Shown here: positions 50,220 to 63,034 of the stretch, one piece after another
Layout: each line of letters opens with the position of its first letter
Position numbering within the stretch: the first letter of the stretch is position 1
Source: Candidatus Altimarinota bacterium
GTDB taxonomy: Bacteria > Patescibacteriota > Gracilibacteria > BD1-5 > UBA6164
Assembly (NCBI GenBank): GCA_013368515.1
Contig: JABWCI010000005.1
Span: 1 to 64,000 of the forward strand
Direction: 5' to 3'
DNA: 64,000 bases
Notes under the pieces: model-generated
What the model was told of the DNA's origin: nothing
What the model saw: only the letters and a program-made list of their open reading frames with translations
Databases searched by the model: none
Translations under genes and position numbers: made by a program

Positions 50220-50294
50220 TGGGAATTAGCCAAATGGTAAGGCAGCGGACTTTGACTCCGTCATTTGGGGGTTCGAGCCCCTCATTCCCAGCCA
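50220..50294 (+). tRNA. tRNA-Gln (anticodon TTG), CCA encoded
   Basis: Cloverleaf by eye: acceptor TGGGAAT / ATTCCCA, discriminator G, encoded CCA. Anticodon arm GCGGA / TCCGT with loop CTTTGAC, anticodon TTG reading CAA. T arm GGGGG TTCGAGC CCCTC. Glutamine is the expected identity for this acceptor. UUG-anticodon tRNA-Gln is a substrate of MnmA, encoded at 34460. Confidence 0.9.
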
Positions 50295-50305
50295 TTAACT
50301 ATTAT

Positions 50306-50360
50306 TTGCGACGATAGAATTGAGTCGGAAAGATAGTTACATCGAGCAATAGCGAGATGC
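50306..50360 (+). repeat. Conserved element downstream of tRNA-Gln (copy A)
   Basis: About 55 bases sharing a core (GAGTCGGAA, AGTTA, ATCGA, GAGATG) with 62841-62900 on the minus strand, downstream of tRNA-Leu. TTGC-GA-CGAT and ATCG-A-GCAA can pair to enclose the core. It is richer in G+C than its surroundings. Possibly a structured RNA or processing signal. The rest of the 50361-50547 gap holds an imperfect AT hairpin (GAATAATTAA / TTAATTATTC) and no gene. Confidence 0.55.
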
Positions 50361-50547
50361 ATACAATTAATATAATAAATAATGAGTAGGGAATAATTAA
50401 AATTATTAATTATTCAATGTTTATTATTTTAAGACTTAAGAAATGAGAAAAATTAGGGTTTTTGTTTTTTAAGTTTTAAACTTAAAAATACTAAAGCACT
50501 TGCAGGAGCTTAGTAAAAAATAATTTATTTTTTAATATTAAGATAAC

Positions 50548-62777: not shown

Positions 62778-62803
62778 TGGTGCTAGAGAGTGGGACTCGG
62801 CGC
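62778..62803 (-). pseudogene. 3'-terminal tRNA-Leu remnant with CCA
   Basis: On the minus strand GCGCC GAGTCCCACTCT then GCACCA repeats the end of the tRNA-Leu at 62951, with the 5' half of the T arm missing and a changed acceptor. No 5' half that could complete a cloverleaf is upstream. A stable GACCC-GAA-GGG hairpin adjoins it. Confidence 0.5.
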
Positions 62804-62840
62804 CCTTCGGGTCGGCCATTCGTTTTTATTAAGGTTGGTA

Positions 62841-62900
62841 CATCTCACTATCGTTCGATATAACTTTCCTTCCGACTCTTGATTTCATCAATCATCGCAA
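62841..62900 (-). repeat. Conserved element downstream of tRNA-Leu (copy B)
   Basis: About 60 bases matching copy A at 50306-50360 (GAGTCGGAA, AGTTA, ATCGA, GAGATG in the same order and spacing). Copy B has an extra small hairpin (TTGAT GAA ATCAA) where A has a few bases, the kind of change expected in a structured RNA. Confidence 0.55.
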
Positions 62901-62950
62901 GAGAAACTTAATTTTTGCTTTGCAAAAAACCTCTATTCGAGTTAAAAAAT

Positions 62951-63034
62951 TGGTGCCCAGAGTGGGACTCGAACCCACACGGCGCAAACCAGAGGATTTT
63001 GAGTCCTCCATGTCTACCATTTCATCACCTGGGC
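62951..63034 (-). tRNA. tRNA-Leu (anticodon CAA), CCA encoded
   Basis: Class II tRNA with a long variable arm. Acceptor GCCCAGG / TCTGGGC, discriminator A, encoded CCA. Anticodon arm GAGGA / TCCTC with loop CTCAAAA, anticodon CAA, reading UUG. Variable arm contains GGTTTGCGCC; T arm GTGGG TTCGAGT CCCAC. Confidence 0.92.

Follow-up and report, generated by a model that had tools for sequence, protein, structure and literature searches.

The two hairpin sequences that follow the tRNA-Gln and tRNA-Leu(CAA) genes of the window (the whole stretch of 64,000 nucleotides analysed here) are probably mobile elements, short and non-autonomous, that use tRNA 3' ends as targets and do not disrupt the tRNA itself. 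We refer to their kind as type II and to a companion kind, which would join tRNA T-loops, as type I. This reading is drawn from sequence, namely from the location of the copies, a covarying structure, a duplication of the tRNA end, an arm matched to the target, empty and filled sites among relatives, and near-identical element bodies at different tRNAs and in different genera. Such tiny structured elements at tRNA ends, found in one bacterial family, are previously unlisted within Rfam and the limited literature that we searched; that part of the whole literature held no description of such elements for Gracilibacteria.

Two copies of a double-hairpin element in the window

ARAGORN placed two tRNA genes in the window, Gln and Leu(CAA), and an Rfam search of the window matched only these two. 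The original prediction, made from the letters alone, had described an element repeated downstream of both genes, and we found a shared structured sequence behind each of them. With a covariance model of type II (R1, built from four copies), the full element proved longer than the ~55 bases first proposed, spanning 50295-50362(+) as copy A and 62838-62911(-) as copy B. The two copies had also been thought to lie at the same distance from their tRNAs; instead, copy A runs from the first base after the CCA, and copy B, being inserted into hairpin 3 of a type I element, starts 39 nt after the CCA. The features of both loci are:

50220-50294, + strand: tRNA-Gln(UUG) gene, host of copy A (ARAGORN; Rfam RF00005, 63.8 bits)
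50295-50362, + strand: type II element, copy A (R1 covariance model, 88.9 bits; RNA fold z -5.2; empty site at the same tRNA in G001)
50296-50339, + strand: hairpin 1 of copy A (stem TAACTAT/ATAGTTA, conserved TTGCGAC...GTCGGAA)
50340-50359, + strand: hairpin 2 of copy A (CATC-GA-GC-AATA-GC-GA-GATG, tandem GA)
62951-63034, - strand: tRNA-Leu(CAA) gene, host of copy B (ARAGORN; Rfam)
62781-62947, - strand: type I element behind tRNA-Leu(CAA), interrupted by copy B (R2 model, 52.7 bits, E 3e-10; uninterrupted orthologues in G002 and G003, loci L105 and L066)
62936-62943, - strand: type I left arm AACTCGAA, antisense to the tRNA-Leu(CAA) T-loop (sequence; arm test)
62838-62911, - strand: type II element, copy B, nested in type I hairpin 3 (R1 model, 81.5 bits; RNA fold z -4.5)
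62800-62817, - strand: fourth hairpin, formed by the 3' part of the tRNA-Leu(CAA) type I element
62778-62799, - strand: second copy of the tRNA-Leu 3' end, from T-loop C56 to CCA (first 13 bases identical, then CTA in place of GG)

Type II elements at the CCA ends of tRNA genes

The type II element is a ~70-bp double hairpin, and copy A reads outward from the tRNA as CCA followed by TTAACTATTATTTGCGACGATAGAATTGAGTCGGAAAGATAGTTACATCGAGCAATAGCGAGATG. Stem 1 varies between copies yet stays paired (TAACTAT/ATAGTTA, TAAATTC/GAATTTA, TAAGTTTC/GAAAGTTA), the middle is conserved (TTGCGAY...RTCGGAA), and hairpin 2 holds a tandem GA internal loop, with one GC pair changed to AU in copy B. The extra hairpin anticipated in copy B was confirmed as TTGAT-GAA-ATCAA at the tip of hairpin 1. 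The substitutions between the copies go beyond the many transitions first described and are largely compensatory base-pair changes. RNA folding gave z-scores of -5.2 for copy A, -4.5 for copy B and -3.3 for a copy behind tRNA-Leu(UAG). The family supplied 28 distinct copies, in which 92.8% of cells were paired and 17 of 21 pairs had double-side changes, a result equalled by none of 500 shuffles.

A BLAST search of the window's own genome (28 contigs, 1.15 Mb) with 50290-50400 recovered the Leu(UAG) copy as a third, independent one on another contig, C19, directly after the tRNA (E 6e-8). In that genome R1 matched six places, all behind tRNAs, and type I and type II are present at about 5-6 copies each. 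These matches are not due to chance, since copies from other genera that had no part in training score E ~1e-14. A covariance search had been named in the original prediction as the way to check it, with an absence of further copies as the outcome that would speak against it; many further copies were found. No known element in Rfam accounts for them, as searches in gathering and E-value modes returned only tRNA plus weak, sub-threshold chance matches (E up to 1).

Hardly any type II copies lie away from tRNA genes. Of the 27 full-length copies in relatives, about 18 start no more than 2 nt from a CCA, spread over about ten isotypes, and the remainder lie 13-14 nt after the CCA, nested in type I, in tandem, inverted, or within a tRNA fragment. 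One copy, at L081 (G006:C7:63476-63544), is inverted relative to the adjoining tRNA, and at L083 (G021:C95, about 8478) a truncated tRNA sequence, with an apparently intact tRNA start after it, contains a type II-like copy.

Type I elements and their targets

The type I body is ~90 nt long with four stems, and the whole insert measures 90-190 bp. A left arm (e.g. GGAGTCGAA) is followed by a three-hairpin body and then by a second copy of the element's own tRNA from C56 to CCA, with the start of which the left arm pairs; the conserved segments of the body are AAAGGAGG, a tandem GA and ACGGATG. The right junction is fixed between T55 and C56. The downstream C56-to-CCA copy accompanies nearly every type I element, giving the regenerated tRNA gene and displaced tRNA fragment that mark tRNA-targeting integrative elements, and because it is left downstream the functional tRNA is kept whole. 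In the window's genome, type I is intact behind Ile, Ser, Tyr and His, variant behind Trp and decayed behind Ala. Across type I copies 96.3% of cells were paired, with 360 double-change cells against 92 after shuffling (0 of 500 shuffles equal). Helices 2, 3 and 5 give the fairer evidence, since the alignment is model-fitted and the first helix is partly tRNA sequence, and they show the same pattern as the whole element.

A type I covariance model (R2, also built from four copies) matched 17 of 36 genomes of the window's Gracilibacteria family and 0 of 24 from the order's other families. A class-wide search of 288 genomes confined type I to the window's family, with the reservation that most genomes compared are draft MAGs and that distant forms would be missed by models trained on the window's genome. 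When GTDB genomes were scanned with a pattern and the matches confirmed by R2, the carriers were likewise Candidatus Gracilibacteria and related MAGs. Pattern matches in Paenibacillus, Vagococcus, Planctomycetes and other phyla were set aside as chance occurrences of a short pattern, none being confirmed by the covariance model.

Nearly all type I matches of at least 24 bits lie 3-68 nt after a tRNA, and 16 isotypes, as named by ARAGORN, are represented. The exceptions are a second tandem unit, one copy displaced by another small insert, and one beside a truncated CCA-ended sequence. Type I is also found behind tmRNA in L130, with the tag-coding sequence visible; a near-identical unit 2.8 kb away is preceded only by the last bases of the tmRNA 3' end, and the two units lie at L130 2340-2530 and 5150-5340 (G016:C27). 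We considered whether the 2.8 kb between these two copies could be an autonomous element and rejected this, as by sequence reading it holds ATP-grasp-like and serine-hydrolase-like ORFs and no recombinase was recognised.

The type I body additionally appears in two copies away from tRNAs, within a different intergenic repeat of ~220 bp. This repeat reads CTTACTTTTGAATCCAAAAGTAAC...GGTCGATTAC-AAA-GTAATCGAAGGAGG (L131, L132, L199 about 6132, L189 about 5837), and here the first stem of type I finds its pairing partner locally upstream. The repeat might be the source of type I or a sister family. At L048 and L055, in two genera, type I elements adjoin genes that ARAGORN calls tRNA-SeC(tca), which are probably tRNA-Gly reading UGA in the TGA=Gly code.

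Empty and filled sites in related genomes

Genomes of the same genus offer both empty and filled sites, which is evidence of insertion. Double hairpins are present in some relatives and absent from others at the Gln, Leu(UAG), Tyr and Leu(CAA) loci. Downstream of tRNA-Gln, the empty site of G001 reads TTATAATAAATAATGAG, whereas the type II-filled site of G000 reads TTAACTATT...CATACAATTAATATAATAAATAATGAG; type II is also absent from this site in G002 and present in G004. Behind tRNA-Leu(UAG), G001, G002 and G005 all have an empty site. No type II copy interrupts the type I element behind tRNA-Leu(CAA) in G002 or G003; in G000 and G004 one is inserted in it at a shared position, and in G001 at a different one. 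At tRNA-Tyr of G000 a type I unit parts the tRNA from type II, which directly follows the CCA in G003 and G004.

Similar comparisons were available for type I. The tRNA-Val site is empty in G002, and in G005 it holds the body between two nearly identical copies of the stretch from T-loop to trailer (~80 bp); the tRNA-Trp site is empty in G002 as well. Tandem type I units stand behind tRNA-Leu(CAA) in G033 and, in part, in G005. At Trp and Met the first trailer is non-native and the trailer after the duplicate is native. Since that first trailer is unlike the native one, a model of single insertion misfits some copies, and by their flanks type I copies follow two patterns, a local-trailer duplication and an imported unit that carries its own trailer. 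The second pattern could have come from double recombination between tRNA genes of different strains.

The type I arm matches its own tRNA

Among 61 non-redundant type I copies, the arm, antisense to T54-C62 of its own tRNA, showed Watson-Crick matches to it at 515 of 549 positions, a figure slightly favoured by choosing the arm as the best-matching 9-mer near the left end. This 9-mer occupies a fixed model position in nearly all copies. When tRNAs were shuffled among arms, the mean fell to 434.7 (sd 5.5, maximum 457), and none of 10,000 shuffles reached 515.

For a test of retargeting we paired copies with body identity of at least 90% and different T-loops, and read the arm at the fixed position only. 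Both arms tracked their own tRNA at 26 of 27 differing T-loop positions (17 pairs, which overlap and are therefore not independent events). Body identity was 95% between the elements at Ile in genus g4 and at a UCA tRNA in g1, and 92% between those at Ser in g2 and Trp in g1. Lineage does not explain the match, since bodies that are near-identical stand at differing T-loops and their arms follow their own tRNA. Only about four arm positions vary, so the match could also stem from compensatory mutation after insertion.

Proposed mechanism and alternative explanations

In the mechanism that we propose, type II would insert right after the tRNA CCA, apparently using the CCA end, and could also enter type I. 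Type I would join tRNA or tmRNA T-loops at one constant position, between T55 and C56, and leave a downstream C56-to-CCA duplicate, with or without trailer and terminator; its left arm would end antisense to T54-C62 of its tRNA and pair with the duplicated 3' end. T-loops may be found through base pairing of the body, or joining there may be the work of a host enzyme, and the enzyme would in any case be supplied by the host or by another element. Insertion itself might write or select the matching arm, either by copying target bases or by guide pairing at the target.

A more specific form of this idea, which we advance tentatively and would not yet favour, is that the recognition arm is rewritten at each insertion, with the ~90-nt body finding T-loops by pairing, joining between T55 and C56 and gaining the antisense of its new target. 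Rewriting of the arm would let one body spread harmlessly through all tRNA isotypes and tmRNA. Were it to hold, this would be a retargeting mobile nucleic acid without a protein of its own and a simple natural case of base-pairing-guided insertion into tRNA genes, in which tiny gene-less elements move safely among the tRNA genes of a streamlined genome with one end matching the target. Cultured Patescibacteria or reconstituted systems could then serve as test ground, and some tRNA-flanking 'islands' and tRNA fragments in these genomes may derive from elements far below the sizes that island finders consider.

The original prediction had offered three ideas for the repeat, namely a structured RNA, a processing signal and an insertion targeting tRNA ends, and the last is the best supported, by orthologous empty and filled sites and by the placement of nearly all copies at tRNA 3' ends. 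Structure as such is strongly supported by the fold z-scores and covariation, and a host functional RNA would explain it: type II would be a 3' trailer hairpin that sets or protects the tRNA end, and type I a tRNA-linked regulatory RNA whose arm pairs with either the T-arm of the tRNA or the duplicated copy. The strong covariation and conserved loops of both types, the strong conservation of unpaired AAAGGAGG, ACGGATG and tandem GA, and the complementarity of the type I arm to the T-arm all fit such a role, as does the start of type II at the CCA boundary, a border relevant in processed RNA and one at which type II might act as a processing signal. We nevertheless consider it unlikely, because the element is absent from the same tRNA in close relatives, a patchiness that also disfavours an essential role in processing; moreover, many type I copies lie beyond the tRNA's own terminator and copies are nested in one another. 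Of the paired cells, only 1.7% in type I and 3.4% in type II are G.U, compared with 7.5% in the tRNA stems at these loci, a scarcity that is unusual under long selection as RNA. It also hints, and can do no more than hint since the copies are related, that the paired form may be DNA.

A SINE-like retroelement, in which type I RNA would base-pair with the T-loop and be reverse-transcribed in trans into the cut site by target priming, would account for one fixed junction between T55 and C56 beside one variable one, for duplications of roughly 24-90 nt in several copies and for the arm's complementarity to its target. We think it quite improbable: RVT_1 matched in some carriers but had no match in carriers G002, G005, G008, G014, G016 and G021, and while some of these are incomplete, completeness is about 99% for G014 and about 96% for G008. 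The scars of lost ordinary integrative elements (phages or islands) at tRNA att sites would resemble type I in that a regenerated tRNA with a displaced 3' fragment is the Islander signature of islands integrated at tRNA and tmRNA genes (PMC4383910), and the inserts at Tyr, Trp and Met bring their own 3' end and trailer. This origin is made very doubtful by the length of the insert, 90-190 bp, by its single conserved body across 16 isotypes and by an arm that follows each tRNA; no type I copy contains an integrase gene or reaches the Islander size of at least 2 kb, no large version exists among the copies, and most carriers have a single tyrosine recombinase per genome, presumably the host Xer. 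REP/REPIN-type elements moved by a Y1 (RAYT) transposase are likewise short, paired, intergenic hairpins and non-autonomous, and yet such an origin is barely credible here and within the genus largely refuted, as Y1_Tnp (PF01797) had no match in any of 6 same-genus genomes, copies keep to tRNA ends instead of being scattered among genes, and the duplications left by type I are long. A reverse transcriptase, Y1 transposase or dedicated tyrosine integrase as a required partner was rejected as inconsistent across carriers. A group I intron with the arm as guide sequence was rejected too, the body being too short and only two bases pairing with the 5' exon. Viral contigs gave no match to either of the patterns used, one for type I and one for type II.

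Comparison with known systems

Within limited literature searching, we know of no described element with an arm matched anew to each tRNA. There is evidence that the double-hairpin elements of fungal mitochondrial DNA are mobile (Paquin et al. 2000, cited in PMC5910586). Type II resembles these elements in its two adjacent small hairpins, non-coding nature, compensatory change and presence/absence signs of mobility, and differs in its bacterial chromosomal setting, its fixed insertion point at the tRNA CCA end and its partner element with tRNA duplication. The hosts are very different, and common descent is unlikely.

Islands and phages with a tyrosine integrase (PMC4383910) share with type I their tRNA and tmRNA targets, a regenerated target, a displaced 3' tDNA and a crossover in the T-arm. 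Type I differs from them in size (about 90-190 bp versus at least 2 kb), in having no integrase, and in having one body for all isotypes, a target-matched left arm and a conserved four-stem fold. REP/REPIN palindromes (PMC3733652) are similarly short, non-autonomous and palindromic in bacterial intergenic DNA, whereas the window's genus is without Y1 transposase and the elements here are tRNA-end specific and low in copy number. Half the tRNA genes of Methanopyrus kandleri are followed, after about 10 bp, by a palindromic motif (PMC5217627), which is comparable in being conserved and in keeping one position behind many tRNAs; it differs in being archaeal and about 19 bp long, and the text consulted mentions neither tRNA duplication nor mobility for it.

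Two further small sequences were observed beside tRNA genes. In G003 and G004 (L160, L161) a third and even smaller insert, TGGATGAGAAGTTTATGCCCCTTGTGGGTA (~30 nt), is bordered by a duplication of ~80 nt that takes in the 3' end and terminator of tRNA-Val; the insert is present in G001 (L109), lacking in G002 and decayed in G000. A small palindromic motif, TACGAATGGCACAGCCAT..., recurs between tRNA genes, behind Thr and Ile, in the window's genome (L002 2076-2200, L008 1740-1800).
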